This document shows, piece after piece, positions 314 to 6,551 of a stretch of DNA of 64,000 nucleotides. The position numbers were made by a program, and so were the translations under genes. Source of the DNA: a candidate division WOR-3 bacterium (lineage in GTDB: Bacteria; Hydrothermota; Tepidihabitantia; Tepidihabitantales; Tepidihabitantaceae); contig VGIR01000001.1 in the NCBI GenBank assembly GCA_016867815.1, forward strand, positions 62,001 to 126,000, given 5' to 3'. The first letter of the stretch is position 1. Every line of letters begins with the position of its first letter. Under the pieces are notes generated by a model, which was not told where the DNA came from, ran no database searches, and saw nothing but the letters and a program-made list of their open reading frames with translations.

Positions 314-1642
314 GTGGTTCGCATGCGATTCACGCCCATCATGGCCGCGTTCGTGGCGGCCGCGATTCTCATACCCGCAACCCTGGCGGCTCACACCACC
401 TTTCAACGCACATTTGGCGGTCCTGGCAGAGACTCCGGTTGCTCCGTCCGGCAGACTGCGGACGGCGGTTACGTCATTGCCGGGACCACCGAAAGCTATG
501 GAGCGGGCAGGCAAGACGTCTATCTGGTAAGGACCGACTCCAGCGGCAACGTGCTTTGGAGCTGTACCTACGGCGGCGAGTCGCTCGACTACGGGAATTC
601 CGTGAGCCAGACGAGTGACGGTGGGTTCATCGTTGCCGGCAGCACGGAGTCGTACGGGGCCGGCTACGCTGACATGTATCTCATTCGAACCGATGCCCAC
701 GGCGAAACACTTTGGACCAGGACGCTCGGGGGCCCACACGATGATGAGGCGACCTCCGTCCTGCAGACCCCCGACGGCGACTTCACGATCGGAGGTTCCT
801 CCGTTTCCTACTCCGGTTGGAGCGACGCCGACCCGTGTCTCGCTAGTACCGACTCAAGTGGTAGTGTTCACTGGGTGAAGGCCCACGACATATTCAACTG
901 GGACTACGGCTACTCCATGGAGAGGACTAGGGGCGGAAACTACGTCATTGCCGGCGGAGCATACGGCTTTATCGGAGGCCGAGCCTACGTTCTCATGGCG
1001 GACGACAAGGGCGACGAAATGTGGACGACCAGCTACGGCCCGGAATACAGCCGAGGCCAAGCCGTGCTGGAGGCGGCCGACGGTGGGATTGCAGTGGTCG
1101 GTGGCGACGCATCGGCTGACCGCGGCAGTGTGAGTCTGGTCAAGTTCGGGGCAAACGGCGAGTCGCTCTGGGGAAGGAAGTACGGCGACGGCATGGGGTA
1201 CGCGGCTATCGAGACCGATGACAGCGGGTTCGTCATTGCCGGCTGCACCGGTGCGGGCACCGACGCCTATCTCGTCAGGACCAATGCCAGTGGCGACCCG
1301 AAGTGGATGAGGATATTCGGCGGTCCCGACAACGAAGTCCTGCAGTCCGTCCAGCCGACCGCCGATGGCGGTTACATCATGACCGGGACCACACGCTCCT
1401 ACGGTGCGGGCGGCAGCGACGTCTATCTCATCAAGACCGACGCTGATGGCAACGTTGGCGTGGCCGATGGGACCCAAAAGCCGCAAGCCACCAGCCGTAG
1501 GCTGTCCACCACGGTCGTTCGCAGTCTGCCGGAGGGCTCAACCGTCTTCGACCCCATGGGGCGGAGGGTAGCTAGCCCGAAGGCGGGAATCTACTTCGTT
1601 CGACAGTCGTCAGCCGTAACCAAGGTCGTTGTGCCGAGGTAA
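314..1642 (+). CDS. secreted beta-repeat protein with C-terminal sorting-like domain
   Basis: The protein is 442 residues. Residues 1-26 form a signal peptide with a hydrophobic core and an Ala-rich cleavage site. About seven tandem repeats of roughly 50 residues follow, each built on GG-x-DxGxSV-x-TxDGGYVIAG-x-T-x-SYGAG-x-DVYLVRTD, a pattern seen in predicted secreted beta-propeller or beta-solenoid proteins. The last ~55 residues (VFDPMGRRV, then AGIYFVRQ and KVVV near the end) look like the C-terminal domains of type IX-secreted proteins. Function is unknown; an extracellular adhesin or surface protein is an inference. AGGAGG at 304-309 precedes a GTG at 314 by 4 nt; an in-frame ATG at 323 is the alternative start. 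Confidence 0.8.
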   Translation: MVRMRFTPIMAAFVAAAILIPATLAAHTTFQRTFGGPGRDSGCSVRQTADGGYVIAGTTESYGAGRQDVYLVRTDSSGNVLWSCTYGGESLDYGNSVSQTSDGGFIVAGSTESYGAGYADMYLIRTDAHGETLWTRTLGGPHDDEATSVLQTPDGDFTIGGSSVSYSGWSDADPCLASTDSSGSVHWVKAHDIFNWDYGYSMERTRGGNYVIAGGAYGFIGGRAYVLMADDKGDEMWTTSYGPEYSRGQAVLEAADGGIAVVGGDASADRGSVSLVKFGANGESLWGRKYGDGMGYAAIETDDSGFVIAGCTGAGTDAYLVRTNASGDPKWMRIFGGPDNEVLQSVQPTADGGYIMTGTTRSYGAGGSDVYLIKTDADGNVGVADGTQKPQATSRRLSTTVVRSLPEGSTVFDPMGRRVASPKAGIYFVRQSSAVTKVVVPR

Positions 1643-1676
1643 GGAGCAGTCAGCAGCGAGGAGCCAGCAACAACCG

Positions 1677-1694
1677 GGCGGGCGAATGCCCGCC
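1677..1694 (+). terminator. GC hairpin after the secreted repeat protein
   Basis: A 7-bp perfect stem (GGCGGGC / GCCCGCC) with a GAAT loop lies 35 nt after the stop codon. There is no strong T-run, so this may be an attenuating or mRNA-protecting hairpin rather than a classic terminator. Confidence 0.45.
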
Positions 1695-1757
1695 TCTGCT
1701 ATTCGGGGTCGTCTCTACGAGAAATCGGGAACGCCTGACAGGCCGGATGGTCTTGGG

Positions 1758-2504
1758 CTATGGTTTCGCCGCGATGAGAGCTTTGTGCAAGTGGAGATGC
1801 AGCAGGGCAGGATTGAGGCCGGCGCGGCGAAGCAGCCGGAAGTAGGGTTCGAGCGCGAGCGGATGCTCGTGGTCCGGGCTGCGCGGGTCAATGAACTGGT
1901 CGGAGAACTGGCCGGAGCGGACGCCGTGAAGGTGCTGGAGCCGACTAAGAACGCTCCGCAGTTGCCGGCCGAACCCGGCCCGGTCTAGCGCGATCCGGTC
2001 CAGTATGAGAAGCAGCCCGTCATTGGTAAGATGCCGTCGGCAGAACCTGAAGAGCCGAGCCTTGGCAGCATCGGTCAGTTCATGGACAGAGTCCACAGCG
2101 ACGATGAACCGAAATGGCGAGCCCGGCACCCCAGTTGCTTGCAGCCGGTCGAGGTCAGACTTGACGAAGCGACACTGCGACCCGTACCCTTGCAGCCGTT
2201 CCCGGGCAAAGCCGAGCATCACTTCTGAACGGTCTACACAGACGAACCGCGCGACCGGAAGCCGTTCCAGTATCACGGCTTCAGTCTTTCCTGTCCCGCA
2301 GCCGAGGTCGAGGATGCGGGCGCCGCGACGCCAGTTCTCCTTGATGACCTCCGCGAGTACGTCGAGCTGCTCAGCCTTGAGCGGATTCGTCGGCTGGCTG
2401 TCCCAGACGCGGACGAATTCCTCGTCGCCCCAGCGGCCAAGCTCGGAGGCAGGATTTCTAGCCGGCAACTCCCAATTCCTATTCGGCCAGGACCCTGAAG
2501 CCAC
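1758..2504 (-). CDS. class I SAM-dependent methyltransferase
   Basis: The protein is 248 residues with a Rossmann-fold methyltransferase core. Motif I (ILDLGCGTG) is at about residues 64-72, and the acidic residue that binds the ribose hydroxyls is D91 in VCVDRS. It resembles generic methyltransferase domain 11/25 proteins and its substrate cannot be told. The longest frame begins at a GTG lying inside an ACGAA-type repeat and has no Shine-Dalgarno, so the true start may be a little downstream, for example an in-frame TTG preceded by a purine-rich stretch. It stands alone, 146 nt downstream of the esterase gene on the same strand. Confidence 0.8.
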   Translation of the reverse strand: MASGSWPNRNWELPARNPASELGRWGDEEFVRVWDSQPTNPLKAEQLDVLAEVIKENWRRGARILDLGCGTGKTEAVILERLPVARFVCVDRSEVMLGFARERLQGYGSQCRFVKSDLDRLQATGVPGSPFRFIVAVDSVHELTDAAKARLFRFCRRHLTNDGLLLILDRIALDRAGFGRQLRSVLSRLQHLHGVRSGQFSDQFIDPRSPDHEHPLALEPYFRLLRRAGLNPALLHLHLHKALIAAKP

Positions 2505-2589
2505 GAAAGCACGAAAGACACGAAACGGGGACAGTGATGGATTTCGAATCTGAGTTCATTTCATCCTGCTTCGTGCTTTTCGTGGCCGT
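2501..2589. repeat. ACGAA-family inverted repeat hairpin
   Basis: The left arm at 2501-2527 repeats the word CACGAAAG. The right arm at 2569-2587 is its inverted counterpart (CTTCGTGCTTTTCGTGGC). Together they form an imperfect hairpin of about 89 bp between the esterase and methyltransferase genes. The same word family recurs at 4223-4298 and 4822-4851. Confidence 0.7.
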
Positions 2590-2650
2590 CTATTCCGGAT
2601 GCTCGGTTTGCTTGCCGGTCGTTGACCAGGGACTGGGTATTGGTCATTCG

Positions 2651-3739
2651 TCATTTCTTACCGAGCATCCACTTCACTGCCTGCTTCAGCTGCTGTTCCG
2701 GTACGGTGTGGCCGCCCTTGAACTCTACGAAGGTGACGTCGAAGCCCTTGCGTTTGAGGAAGTCACGGGCGTTCTTGCCGTTCTTGTACTCAACGACCCG
2801 GTCTTCCTTGCCATGGGCGATGAATACACTGAGGTTCTTGGCCTCTTCGTACTGCGCCGCAGTGAACCCGAGGGAGTCAAAACCTCCACCGAAGCCGATG
2901 ATGCCTTGGAAGAAGTCAGAGTAGCCAATGCCGGTCTGGTAGGCCATACCGCAGCCCTGCGAGAATCCCAGAAGCCAGGTGCCGGTTGTCTTGTATTGGC
3001 CCGTCAGCCTGACGGCCGCAGTGGCGACGAAGCTGCAGGCCAACGCCTCTGAACTCGGGCCGACCATGCTGTCGTCCTTGCTCCATGTCGACCAGGAGTA
3101 GCCGAGGTCACGGCCGGCGCCGAACTGGTATGGAGCCTGCAGGCAGGCGAAGATGAGGTCCGGACTGCCGGCGCGTTCGTAGAGCCGTGCGAACGACTTC
3201 GGGTCCGAGCCGAAGCCGTGAAGACCGATGACAAGTGGGTAGGCGCGAGTCGAGTCGTAGCCGGCGGGTAGCCGGACGTAGCACGGGATGAAGCTCGACG
3301 CCTCTACGAGTACCTGCGTGCCGGTTCGAGCCTGCGCGCTCTCGGCGTGAGAAGCGAGGCTCTCGACCAGCGTGGCGAATACCGGTCGGGTGCGGACCGA
3401 GTCGAAGTCCGGATCCTGTTTCACGTGACCGATGTCATCGAACCCGGCGCGGAACGCGCGCCTCAGGTAGAGTGCGGCCAGCGAGTCCTGCTTCAGCAGT
3501 CCATAGCAGCAGGCCAGGTTGTAGATGTCGCTCGACTTGGTGATGTCGTGCTCGAGCGCGGTCAGGTACAGGCGTGCCGCTTCATTGTACCTGGCTGCCT
3601 GGTAGGCGGCGTTCGCCGCCCGGCTGACGGAGTCGAGAGGAAAGTCGAGGAAGCTACCGGCGTTGGGGTCAAGCTCATTCAGCGCCGGCTGGGCGTAGCC
3701 GACGAGCACGGTCAGGGCGATTGCGGTCAGCAGTCTCAT
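2651..3739 (-). CDS. exported alpha/beta-hydrolase (esterase) with TPR-like N-terminus
   Basis: The protein is 362 residues. A signal peptide occupies roughly residues 1-16. Residues 35-110 are helical and TPR-like. From residue ~140 a polyhydroxybutyrate-depolymerase/feruloyl-esterase-like alpha/beta hydrolase follows: HGFGSDP oxyanion-hole segment at ~174, nucleophile elbow GFSQG with Ser260, acid D313 in GKEDRVV, and His344 in GGHTVP. It probably hydrolyses ester bonds in the periplasm or outside the cell; the substrate is unknown. A clear AAGGAGAG Shine-Dalgarno precedes the ATG. It lies 18 nt after the HIT gene on the same strand and is probably co-transcribed with it. Confidence 0.8.
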   Translation of the reverse strand: MRLLTAIALTVLVGYAQPALNELDPNAGSFLDFPLDSVSRAANAAYQAARYNEAARLYLTALEHDITKSSDIYNLACCYGLLKQDSLAALYLRRAFRAGFDDIGHVKQDPDFDSVRTRPVFATLVESLASHAESAQARTGTQVLVEASSFIPCYVRLPAGYDSTRAYPLVIGLHGFGSDPKSFARLYERAGSPDLIFACLQAPYQFGAGRDLGYSWSTWSKDDSMVGPSSEALACSFVATAAVRLTGQYKTTGTWLLGFSQGCGMAYQTGIGYSDFFQGIIGFGGGFDSLGFTAAQYEEAKNLSVFIAHGKEDRVVEYKNGKNARDFLKRKGFDVTFVEFKGGHTVPEQQLKQAVKWMLGKK

Positions 3740-3757
3740 GTTTGCTCTCCTTGCGCC

Positions 3758-4195
3758 TTAGTCTTGGGTGTTCCTTATCTTCTCAGCGATCTCGTCCAAT
3801 TCGGCCTCGCTGAACGGCGGCTTCATGCGAACTTGTGCGAAGTGGTGCATGGCCAGAGTCTTGTCGAGCAGGTTCTCTTCACCCTTGATGCTGGGGATGA
3901 AGAGCATGTGCAGGTGCGGGACCCGGGTGCCGCGAATGAGCATGGTGACATACTCGCAGTCGAAAGTGTGCTTGAGCTTGCGCGCAATCACGTAGCAGGT
4001 CTTGAGGAACGGGCCGGCAATGCCGTCCTCGGGTTCAATGTCCGTGAACCACTCCACATGTTTCTTCGGAATGACGAGGCAGTGACCACGGGAGATGGGG
4101 TGGAGGTCGAGGAAGGCGAGCGTGTGCTCGTCCTCGTAGACCTTCCGGGCCGGCGCCCGGCCGGCCACGATTTGGCAGAATATGCACTCAGACAT
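3758..4195 (-). CDS. HIT family protein
   Basis: The protein is 145 residues, the usual size for a HIT nucleotide hydrolase. The N-terminus has the typical CxxC start (CIFC, which binds zinc in many family members) and the ISRGHCLVIPKKHV segment. The histidine triad reads PHLHMLFIP, with H94 and H96 present but Leu at position 98 where the third His normally sits. The middle His, the usual nucleophile, is kept, so activity on nucleoside phosphoramidates or dinucleotides is possible but altered. A GAGGAG Shine-Dalgarno precedes the ATG. Confidence 0.88.
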   Translation of the reverse strand: MSECIFCQIVAGRAPARKVYEDEHTLAFLDLHPISRGHCLVIPKKHVEWFTDIEPEDGIAGPFLKTCYVIARKLKHTFDCEYVTMLIRGTRVPHLHMLFIPSIKGEENLLDKTLAMHHFAQVRMKPPFSEAELDEIAEKIRNTQD

Positions 4196-4222
4196 CAGTC
4201 ACTCCTCTATTGAGATTTGACA

Positions 4223-4298
4223 GCCACGAAAGCACGAAAGGACACGAAACGGACTGCGGAAGGCTTGAGCCACGAAAGCACGAAAGGACACGAAACGG
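4223..4298 (+). repeat. two identical 30-bp ACGAA-family direct repeats
   Basis: Positions 4223-4252 and 4269-4298 carry the same 30 bp, built on GCCACGAAAGCACGAAAG followed by GACACGAAACGG, with 16 bp between them. An inverted, diverged copy lies at 4822-4851, so the copies bracket the GxxExxY gene. Confidence 0.9.
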
Positions 4299-4361
4299 TC
4301 GGAGATCCATGTGATCTCGGAGTGTCTAGGTCGCCAGTGGCTCTTGACAGCCCGTGGGCAC

Positions 4362-4724
4362 TCACAGGACCACTCTCTTGATTCCGAGCTTCGACCTACC
4401 GAAGTTCAGCAGCAATCCGGTCTTCAGATGGAAAGCCTTGAGATACGAGATGACCTGCGCCATGTGGCTATCCTGGAAATCCTGGGCAGCCTTGAGTTCG
4501 ACGACGATAGTGTTGTCGACGACGAGATCAAGGCGATGAAGGCCCACTTCGGTCCCGGCGTAGCTCACGCATATCTCCTTCTCGGAATCGGCCCGCATGC
4601 CGTCAACCCGTAGCTGGAACAGCAGGGCATTGTGATAGATGGACTCCAGGAACCCGGGACCCAACTCCTTGTGGACCTTCAGTGCGGAGCTGATTATCCG
4701 ACTCGACAGTGCATCAAACTCCAA
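4362..4724 (-). CDS. GxxExxY protein
   Basis: The protein is 120 residues and full length for the family. The name-giving motif is GFLESIY (G24, E27, Y30), after the typical helix KVHKELGPG. A PD-(D/E)xK-like core follows: D66 in RLDLVVD and E77-L-K79 in VVELKA. The family is nuclease-like by fold, but I know of no settled function. It includes proteins encoded by intervening sequences inside 23S rRNA genes of some bacteria. The gene is isolated from its neighbours and lies between inverted ACGAA-type repeats (4223-4298 and 4822-4851), which suggests a compact mobile or repeat-associated unit; that is an inference from position only. Confidence 0.88.
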   Translation of the reverse strand: MEFDALSSRIISSALKVHKELGPGFLESIYHNALLFQLRVDGMRADSEKEICVSYAGTEVGLHRLDLVVDNTIVVELKAAQDFQDSHMAQVISYLKAFHLKTGLLLNFGRSKLGIKRVVL

Positions 4725-4821
4725 TCCTGTTCTTCTCCTCGTTTGGGTCTGTTGTCTCTAGGGCTGCTATCATTCCCGACCCTGTGACGGCTGGCTGTCT
4801 CATGACATACGTCCATCCGGT

Positions 4822-4851
4822 TTCTCTTCGTGTACTTCGTGTCTTCGTGGC
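4822..4851 (-). repeat. inverted ACGAA-family repeat copy
   Basis: Read on the minus strand this is GCCACGAAGACACGAAG followed by TACACGAAGAG, a diverged copy of the 30-bp repeats at 4223-4298 in opposite orientation. It abuts the stop codon of the pyruvate-kinase-like gene. Confidence 0.8.
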
Positions 4852-5402
4852 TACCAGTCCTTAGGCTTGGTGATAATCTCTCGAACCTTGGTGTCGAAGA
4901 ACTGGCGCGAGTGGGCGGGACGGATGACGATGGCGGTGTCCGCGCCCGTGCCGGTGCCGGCTATGGCGACGACGTCCTTGCCATGAGGTATCAGCCCTGC
5001 GTCGAGCGCCATTACCGCTATCTCGACCGCGACCTTGGTGCCTTCGCCCAGCGTGCGGTAGGTGAACGCTATCGTCTCGGCCGTCCCGAGGCCGCCGACT
5101 TTGAGGCGGACGGCACGTTCGACGCCGCCGAACAGGTGCGTCGTCCGCAGGACCGGGATGCCGGCCTCCGCCAGGCGGTTCTCGGTTGTCTCCGACAGCT
5201 CGGACTTGCCCGGCTCGCGGAATCCGACGTGGTGCGTCACGCAGGCTGCGTTCAGGCCGTGCGGCAGCATCCGCGCCAGTTCGAGCGCGGTGGTTCCGGA
5301 AGTGGAGGCGACGACGAGGTGCTTGATGCCGAGAGCTTCGGCTCGCTCAACTGCAGCCTTGAGCGTGGCCCGGGTCAGTGCTCTGGGATTCAGTTTCTTC
5401 AT
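4851..5402 (-). CDS. stand-alone pyruvate kinase alpha/beta (C-terminal) domain protein
   Basis: The protein is 183 residues and matches the C-terminal allosteric domain of pyruvate kinase without the catalytic barrel. Visible features are the VVASTSGTTALELAR segment (residues ~30-45), the VTHHVGFREPG stretch and the C-terminal GTGTGADTAIVIRPA. Such single-domain proteins are known in bacteria and archaea and have no proven enzymatic role; they may bind a phosphorylated metabolite. It is the last gene of the minus-strand thiolase region, but a hairpin at 5471-5494 separates it from that operon. Confidence 0.82.
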   Translation of the reverse strand: MKKLNPRALTRATLKAAVERAEALGIKHLVVASTSGTTALELARMLPHGLNAACVTHHVGFREPGKSELSETTENRLAEAGIPVLRTTHLFGGVERAVRLKVGGLGTAETIAFTYRTLGEGTKVAVEIAVMALDAGLIPHGKDVVAIAGTGTGADTAIVIRPAHSRQFFDTKVREIITKPKDW

Positions 5403-5470
5403 GGGGGTGGTTTTGCTCCTTTCGGTCGGCGGCTTGAATCATAGCCGTCGTGACGCGCACGGTCAAGCAG

Positions 5471-5494
5471 AAGGGGCGGCTTGCGCCGCCCCTT
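5471..5494 (-). terminator. hairpin downstream of the thiolase/OB-fold operon
   Basis: A perfect 10-bp stem (AAGGGGCGGC / GCCGCCCCTT) with a 4-nt loop lies 20 nt after the stop of the last OB-fold gene. The T-run is weak, so termination may be partial. Confidence 0.55.
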
Positions 5495-5513
5495 GGGTTG
5501 CTGACTCAGAACT

Positions 5514-5978
5514 CTACTTGGGCTCGAAGTGGAGGATGTCGGTGATGGCGCCTTCGCGCTTGGCCGTGGGCTTGAGTACCGCGGCTACCTCCATCCCGAT
5601 ACAGCAGGGCTTCTCGGTCAGCCGGTGAACGATGCTTGTGGTTGCACCGTCGAGCCGGATGAGCCCGATGAACTGGGGCTTCTCGAGCGGCTTGCCGTCC
5701 AGGCCAACGTGGAGCTCGGTCCAAGACTCGACGATCCCGGTCGGTCCGACTTTGACCCAGTCGTCAAGCTTGGCCATGCACTTCTCGCAGTAGAGCTTGG
5801 GCGGCACATAGACCTCATTGCAGGCCGTGCACACCGCGCCCTGGAATTGACCCTTCTCCTTCAGGGTCTTGAAGAACCGGTCGCCGGCAGCGCCGGCAGT
5901 GTAGAGGCTCTGGACCGGGAGTTCGCCGGGCCAGGTCTTGGCTTCAGCGGGCAGGGAGAGTCGTTCTTTGAGTGCCAT
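5514..5978 (-). CDS. Zn-ribbon / OB-fold (DUF35-type) protein
   Basis: The protein is 154 residues. A rubredoxin-like zinc ribbon with two CxxC pairs (CTAC and CEKC, residues ~46-67) leads into an OB fold. This is the DUF35 architecture of thiolase partners and of ChsH2-type CoA-binding subunits. Residues 1-45 form an extra N-terminal helix typical of the family. It is the fourth gene of a tight operon with two thiolase-like genes and a second DUF35 gene, with a 9-nt gap containing AGGAGG before the ATG. It probably forms a complex with one of the thiolase-like proteins. Confidence 0.85.
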   Translation of the reverse strand: MALKERLSLPAEAKTWPGELPVQSLYTAGAAGDRFFKTLKEKGQFQGAVCTACNEVYVPPKLYCEKCMAKLDDWVKVGPTGIVESWTELHVGLDGKPLEKPQFIGLIRLDGATTSIVHRLTEKPCCIGMEVAAVLKPTAKREGAITDILHFEPK

Positions 5979-5987
5979 GGTTCCTCC

Positions 5988-6551
5988 TTACACCGGTTTC
6001 CAGTAGAGGATGTCGGTGATGGCGCCTTCGCGCTCTTCAGCCGGCTTCCATACTGCCTTGACCTTCATACCTCGCTTGACCTGCTTGGGGTCCACTTCGC
6101 CCAAGAGGTGCATGATGCCCATGCCTTTGGACGCGCCGTCTATCTCGATGACTGCCGGGATGAGCGGTTCGGTGATGCGCTTGACGTCCCAAGTGACGTA
6201 GCATAGAGAGAAGGTGTTGATGACGCCGGTGTCCTTGATTTCGGTCCAGCCGTCAATGGGCTTGAAGCACCACTCGCAGAACGCACGGGGCGGAACCATG
6301 GTTCGGTTGCACGAACCGCACGTCACCGCGAGTATCTTGCCCCTTTTCAGACCGGCAAGGTACTTGCCGATGGCGACCCCGCGGTCCCACGCGTACTTCG
6401 CGTCGTGGGTCCAGCGCGTCGTGCAGACTTTGCCATGCTTGAAGTCGTCGTCGGACAGGCCGGTGGCAATCGGGCCGTATGGAGGAGCGTCGGGAACGGG
6501 ACGCGGACCATGGACTTTGGACTTCAGACTCTGGACTTTGGACTTTGCCAT
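5988..6551 (-). CDS. Zn-ribbon / OB-fold (DUF35-type) protein
   Basis: The protein is 187 residues from an ATG with GGAGG 5-9 nt upstream. The zinc ribbon has CGSC and CEWC, followed by an OB fold ending EREGAITDILYWKPV, nearly the same ending as its neighbour (KREGAITDILHFEPK); the two are paralogues. The first ~20 residues are encoded by a word repeat (GACTTTGGACTT on the plus strand) and look like an added, non-conserved N-terminus. A longer frame exists upstream but lacks a ribosome site and overlaps the thiolase gene, so I reject it. Confidence 0.85.
   Translation of the reverse strand: MAKSKVQSLKSKVHGPRPVPDAPPYGPIATGLSDDDFKHGKVCTTRWTHDAKYAWDRGVAIGKYLAGLKRGKILAVTCGSCNRTMVPPRAFCEWCFKPIDGWTEIKDTGVINTFSLCYVTWDVKRITEPLIPAVIEIDGASKGMGIMHLLGEVDPKQVKRGMKVKAVWKPAEEREGAITDILYWKPV

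Follow-up and report, generated by a model that had tools for sequence, protein, structure and literature searches.

The window analysed here, a 64,000-nucleotide stretch from the genome of a candidate division WOR-3 bacterium, contained a GxxExxY gene (4362-4724, minus strand) bracketed by inverted repeats. The 3' side carried two identical 30- to 31-bp repeats, at 4222-4252 and 4268-4298, and the 5' side carried one inverted and diverged copy at 4827-4852, an arrangement that an earlier reading made from the letters alone (the sequence-only reading) had described. Repeat searches resolved each copy into three units. Specifically, the outer 3'-side array (4224-4252, plus strand) consisted of three inward-pointing CACGAA units (CCACGAAAG, CACGAAAGGA, and CACGAAACGG), the inner 3'-side array (4270-4298, plus strand) was identical to the outer copy, and the 5'-side array (4827-4851, minus strand) was the diverged copy (CCACGAAGACACGAAGTACACGAA on the minus strand). 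GxxExxY was the sole gene between the arrays, as that reading had also claimed, and the sole family-matched ORF in the unit. Domain searches identified two neighboring genes on the minus strand: a HIT-domain gene on the left (3758-4195) and a gene with a pyruvate kinase alpha/beta (PK_C) domain on the right (4851-5402). Both defined the site, and the right-hand gene served as the query for empty sites. The outer end of the 5'-side array provided part of the stop codon of the right neighbor.

The window's genome was designated G000, and the genome-wide repeat numbers given here are pattern counts. When up to three mismatches were allowed, CCACGAAAGNACGAAA occurred 7 times in the window compared to 1.4 expected, a number that was never reached in 100 shuffles. 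When up to one mismatch was allowed, CACGAAAGNACGAAA occurred 37 times in the whole G000 genome compared to 4 times for the reversed control. A chance origin of the repeats was rejected based on the window, genome, shuffle, and control-ORF counts. By itself, the inverted repeat of the window scored 18.5, which was higher than the 95th percentile in shuffled sequence (15) but lower than the largest of 100 shuffles (20); the strength of the case came from the empty sites and the other loci. A search of Rfam yielded no match in window positions 1500-6000 and no family for the gene-free hairpin discussed below.

The 120-amino-acid product of the gene matched TIGR04256 (130.5 bits with a cutoff of 35; 3.5e-38) and PF13366 (PDDEXK_3; 128 bits with a cutoff of 22; 3.1e-37), and no other Pfam domain was found. 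A PD-(D/E)xK core had been proposed at D66, E77, and K79. The first of these residues was correct, and the other two were misnumbered: the catalytic residues were D66, E76, and K78, plus E27, Q90, and Y94. Among 37 homologues, E27, Y30, E76, and K78 were invariant, D66 and Q90 were conserved in at least 90%, and Y94 was nearly invariant. PD-(D/E)xK residues together with a QxxxY motif are the signature of RecB and Cas4 nucleases. The AF2 model of the window protein had a pLDDT of 93, and its nearest PDB folds were SSO0001 (E value of 2.2e-4), which we take to be a Cas4 protein, and then lambda exonuclease, LHK-Exo, AddAB, and MGME1; a sequence search of the PDB revealed no chain related to the window protein. 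Based on the catalytic columns, the model, and the fold matches, the window protein is predicted to be a minimal PD-(D/E)xK nuclease with a Cas4/RecB/lambda-exonuclease-like fold and conserved catalytic residues. Family membership, catalytic residues, and the QxxxY motif were what it shared with the Cas4/RecB/lambda-exonuclease nucleases and with TIGR04256/PF13366.

To our knowledge, no function has been assigned to the TIGR04256 and PF13366 database families, and we know of no solved relative that is bounded by repeats. The open-access literature searched contained no description of a GxxExxY, PDDEXK_3, or TIGR04256 element or of its repeats, which may be described elsewhere.

Presence and absence at orthologous junctions

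A search for empty sites in close relatives had been suggested as a check on the sequence-only reading. Using the right-hand neighbor gene, we located the orthologous sites in five congeneric species (G001 to G005). Four of the congeners lacked the whole unit: the junction was empty and read CTCCTT/ACCAGT in G002, G003, and G005 and TTCCTT/ACCAGT in G004 (the slash marks the junction). The GxxExxY gene and its arrays were present at the same junction in G000 and G001. When compared to the empty sites (CTCCTT/ACCAG), the gene and arrays were a 630- to 646-bp insertion, approximately. The whole insertion (4207-4852) was at most 646 bp, and at least 629 bp when counted from 4224; its right end lay exactly at the stop codon of the right neighbor, and its exact left boundary could not be fixed. 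No target-site duplication was recognisable in the comparison with the four empty sites, which is weak evidence given the diverged flanks. The right-neighbor protein of G000 was 81% identical to that of G001 and 75 to 78% identical to those of the other congeners, and so a single gain in the ancestor of G000 and G001 was the simplest reading.

Within the genus, presence and absence at orthologous sites could be followed clearly at two loci and in part at a third. The second locus lay beside tRNA-Leu and a gene that, from a reading of its protein, presumably encodes phosphopentomutase; G002 and G005 had an intact element, G003 had a decayed one, and G001 (which kept one array relic) and G004 had none. 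In the case of the partial third locus, glyQ, the comparison covered G000, G003, G004, and G005. G000 carried a GxxExxY element whose word was CGCCGATG, and the glyQ flank, without a GxxExxY gene, carried a CACGGAT solo hairpin in G003, a hairpin built from another kind of repeat in G004, and a short array in G005. An all-against-all comparison of loci yielded copies that were either orthologous or old, and no two near-identical full elements located at separate sites.

A convergent junction beside a gene that we take, from its protein, to be leuD-like contained the element in G030, G036, and G044. At the same junction in G034 (L296), a broken GxxExxY gene lay between arrays in the orientation opposite to that of L292, L295, and L297. 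In G040 (L294, contig C64, about 1350-2150), the junction was occupied by a RAYT-like gene of the Y1_Tnp type located between inverted REP-like hairpins. This replacement shows that RAYT-like and GxxExxY elements use one intergenic site.

The gene and its inverted arrays are almost certainly one unit. The sequence-only reading had offered two ideas, a minimal mobile unit or an enzyme that maintains the repeat family. The unit was borne out by the empty sites and by the cross-phylum array counts given below, whereas the enzymatic step is one that we only infer.

GxxExxY genes were carried by 8 of 72,556 plasmid records, and none of the phage records in the collection searched carried one; this near absence from plasmids and absence from phages distinguishes GxxExxY from ordinary insertion sequences. 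Two of three plasmid-borne copies examined had matching inverted arrays (Bacteroides and Sphingomonas). In a Sphingomonas plasmid record (L291, 2971-3399), GxxExxY and its inverted arrays lay between fabD and fabG of a fatty-acid operon, codirectional with it.

The dN/dS ratios between pairs of GxxExxY genes were 0.05 to 0.29, copies at orthologous sites included (dS about 1), showing that the gene is under purifying selection. Genomes contained 1 to 12 copies, some of them broken. Purifying selection at orthologous sites counts against a selfish element, as a copy that was purely selfish could do without it, and long-term retention under such selection fits a RAYT-like, mostly vertical life. 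The same selection, the copy number, the near absence from plasmids and phages, and the Cas4/RecB-like fold are also consistent with a domesticated host nuclease that would resolve or remove palindromes or function in repair or defense, its arrays being regulatory or target sites duplicated by slippage and recombination. However, the broken copies and the fact that close congeners cleanly have or lack the unit as a whole fit an element better than a fixed host gene, and an array pair belongs to each gene copy. A host function of this kind seemed quite improbable to us.

Array architecture and words across phyla

The pattern was far more general than the window locus suggested. A search with a 7-row alignment yielded a cross-phylum set of 80 GxxExxY loci, 78 of them testable, from about 20 phyla, including the archaea Methanothrix and Methanophagales. 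We scored a locus as array flanked if at least two inward CRCNRA units were found within 300 bp on both sides, and 768 other ORFs of 70 to 220 amino acids from the same contigs served as controls. Inward arrays flanked 65 of the 78 GxxExxY loci (83%) compared to 8 of the 768 control ORFs (about 1%), and two of those eight were GxxExxY genes themselves. Thus, the predicted enrichment of inverted repeats at GxxExxY genes relative to other small genes was found. By this motif definition, 13 of the 78 loci did not have arrays on both sides; by inverted-repeat score, 72 of the 78 exceeded all shuffles. Of 46 short GxxExxY loci among relatives in the window's class, 35 had an inverted repeat that scored higher than any of 100 shuffles.

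An association of arrays with every PF13366 protein was rejected, since the two-domain form (about 270 amino acids) had no flanking inverted repeat or arrays in any of four cases. These proteins (L058 to L061), some of which had a second weak match, are perhaps the products of a separate, maybe ancestral, host gene.

Arrays had a strict architecture. Exactly three units were present in 100 of 105 arrays, and a C preceded the first unit in 100 of 105. The pitch was 8 or 9 bp, and the cross-phylum consensus end was T-(T/G)-(A/C)-A-C followed by repeats of CRCNRAGR. The end arrays, with their three CRCNRAG units, pair with those at the opposite end.

The hexamer in the units differed from locus to locus and included CACGAA, CGCCAA, CACAGA, CGCAGA, CACGGA, CGCAAA, CACCAA, CACTGA, and others. 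A repeat limited to the CACGAAAG word was therefore rejected; the repeat is better described as a set of related words that share a skeleton. Within a locus, both arms agreed in word, and their unit lengths agreed in 94% of cases compared to 54% between loci. When words were placed on the protein tree, 30 changes were counted for 64 cross-phylum loci (minimum of 32 in 300 shuffles) and 11 changes for 27 loci of the window's class (minimum of 14 in 300 shuffles); these figures leave out a 114-row set that contained duplicate loci. In addition, L001 and the second gene of L091, which is from another MAG, encoded proteins that were 67% identical and shared the word CGCCGATG. The words followed the protein tree, and this pair agreed with it; thus, the gene and its ends were inherited together.

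Some loci had peculiarities of their own. At L110 and L150, near-identical repeats were found on the two sides of GxxExxY with their inner parts mutually inverted, as if the loops flip. The N-terminal extensions (such as NTEDTE and NADERR) of the proteins at L038, L047, L062, and L001 corresponded to the translated upstream array, and so the annotated starts of the family may be wrong or the arrays may be translated. An Rfam match at L118, a pair of Acido-Lenti-1 RNAs, was unrelated to the element.

GxxExxY was codirectional with both neighbors in 51 of 92 cases compared to 121 of 277 controls, and it was antiparallel to both in 4 of 92 compared to 41 of 277. This orientation bias, along with a predicted RNA fold in which the window arms pair at either end, speaks for an RNA-level element, that is, one whose arms pair in the transcript, whose stem is cut by RNase III, and whose insertion is neutral to the flanking genes. 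There is a precedent in the intervening sequence (IVS) of the Coxiella 23S rRNA, which is 428 nt long, has 28-bp complementary ends and an ORF in its loop, and is excised by RNase III (PMC4990558). The likeness extends to an ORF of about 120 codons in the loop, a stem of complementary ends of about 25 to 30 bp, a total size of about 430 to 640 bp, and a suspected selfish nature. However, IVS ORFs encode S23p four-helix-bundle proteins (PMC4990558) rather than nucleases, and the window ORF belongs to PF13366, not S23p. The window locus was not in 23S rRNA, its neighbors being the HIT and PK_C genes; GxxExxY elements in general lie between protein-coding genes and have ends made of tandem units. 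The RNA fold of the whole element was not very unusual (z = -1.8), and cognate words and dispersed solo hairpins would be left unexplained. We regard an RNA-level element as highly improbable.

Solo hairpins and the proposed element

A gene-free inverted hairpin at 2501-2589 of the window, which the sequence-only reading had taken for a non-autonomous version, was recovered by repeat search. Its arms carried the CACGAA word, its outer ends were about 85 bp apart, and its single-stranded DNA fold was unusually stable (z = -3.8). Most CACGAA hairpins in G000 had a 78- to 80-bp core plus extra outer arms, and among the two-unit matches listed for G000, 19 pairs pointed inward within 200 bp and none pointed outward.

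Such hairpins were abundant. Three-unit CCAC arrays numbered 93 to 121 per genome in the window's genus compared to 0 to 7 in controls, and there were 247 in G015 and 100 in G027. CCGC arrays numbered 24 in G000 and 97 in G004, in which the genes L062 and L073 carried the words CGCCAAG and CGCAGATT; most CCGC arrays among those listed shared these words. Many genomes with a GxxExxY gene contained tens to hundreds of solo arrays, and the word of these was often that of the gene present in the same genome.

Like MITEs and insertion sequences, the GxxExxY unit has terminal inverted repeats, empty sites, and copies both with and without a gene; it differs from them in having none of the known transposase classes. 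Young, near-identical, array-bearing MITE-like units were found in G046 (L279 to L284) and G044 (L269 to L276). On the outside they were bounded by terminal repeats (GAGRTTGTCGGAAAAG or GAGCTTGTCYGARAATA), and they showed what look like 4-bp duplications (TATC, CTGG, TGAA, CTTG, and CTAG). Because these arrays sit inside MITE-like units, other transposases may spread some copies. The left and right arrays of a unit could differ in word.

The outer repeats and duplications of these units are the main support for the idea that the arrays are passengers of ordinary DDE-transposase MITEs, moved by transposases in trans, with the nuclease only trimming or surviving on palindromes. The extra outer arms around a mostly constant core in the G000 hairpins point the same way. 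However, the passenger idea leaves unexplained the presence of one nuclease family between arrays in about 20 phyla, the rule of three units per array, and the agreement of words with the nuclease tree, and the gene-bearing copy in the window showed no recognisable outer repeats or duplication of this type. We consider it unlikely.

What we think likely instead is one small insertable element with arrays as its ends and solo hairpins as its non-autonomous copies, driven by a nuclease that recognises the arrays. The layout would be TTAAC(CRCNRAGR)x3, the gene, and the inverse of the first array, with the solo hairpins of the same arrays derived from it. The nuclease, a stand-alone enzyme of the Cas4/RecB type, would most likely recognise the array as a folded single strand, as a cruciform, or as paired ends, and it would cut at or in the hairpin. 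By cutting, it would bring about the occasional excision, copying, or insertion of units that carry the matching word. Action of the nuclease on its own arrays is somewhat favored in our estimation; binding and cutting by the enzyme, and the strand chemistry by which units would move, are proposed.

RAYTs (REP-associated tyrosine transposases) are thought to drive rare movement or copying of REP sequences. The RAYT and REP/REPIN system (PMC2817692, PMC3116915, and PMC8266576) resembles GxxExxY in that a small enzyme gene is set between inverted palindromic repeats, the gene is present in few copies, palindromes are dispersed in tens to hundreds, and each enzyme clade has a cognate repeat. Inverted copies of a palindromic repeat that is dispersed in the genome bracketed the GxxExxY gene. 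The two systems differ in the enzyme, which is an HUH Y1 transposase in RAYTs and a Cas4/RecB-branch PD-(D/E)xK nuclease in GxxExxY, and apparently in the ends, which are single REP hairpins in RAYTs and arrays of three 8- to 10-bp units in GxxExxY. The HUH Y1 domain (PF01797) was absent from the window unit, and Y1_Tnp was found only in the G040 occupant. Membership in RAYT/REP was excluded because the enzyme differs, and the best reading would be that of a system like RAYT/REPIN in layout, but with an unrelated nuclease as its enzyme and with unrelated repeats. If so, it would show that a RAYT/REPIN life style, in which one enzyme gene is kept along with gene-free hairpins, evolved more than once with unrelated enzymes.

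The unit looks like an apparently unrecognised class of minimal mobile element. The GxxExxY family has been known until now only as uncharacterised, and its association with arrays spans bacteria and archaea; the element would give this large nuclease family a testable role and would explain where a very common class of short palindromic repeats, seen in environmental genomes, comes from. Were the nuclease alone enough to recognise word-specific arrays, it would be a small DNA recognition system for which natural data on word and protein covariation can already be analysed. A broader proposal, which we make tentatively and rate just short of an even bet, is that GxxExxY represents a domain-spanning class of mobile element whose sole enzyme is a 120-amino-acid Cas4-like nuclease that recognises three-unit CRCNRAG arrays, that its word specificity coevolves with the protein, that its dispersed hairpins are a major part of the short palindromic repeats still lacking an explanation in environmental bacteria and archaea, and that S23p-type genes with 7- to 8-bp arrays form a second class with the same architecture.

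A parallel class for four-helix-bundle genes was seen in the sequence data. There were 26 matches to TIGR02436 in G000, and inverted arrays of 7- to 8-bp units exceeded all shuffles at 20 of 28 four-helix-bundle loci (L168 to L197), with words that differed per locus. Paired CRCNRA arrays were found at none of the 28 loci, which had their own kind instead, and the idea that CRCNRA arrays surround any small mobile-looking gene was rejected. The site orthologous to that of the window's solo hairpin (2501-2589) was empty in congeners, held a longer hairpin, or had a four-helix-bundle-like gene flanked by arrays of its own. The intergenic region around the hairpin (2440-2600) contained relics of AATTCCTA-type arrays. 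In G003 (L229, contig C97, about 4400-4900), a gene that appeared by eye to encode a four-helix bundle lay between AATTCCTA-type arrays, and the site was empty in G004.
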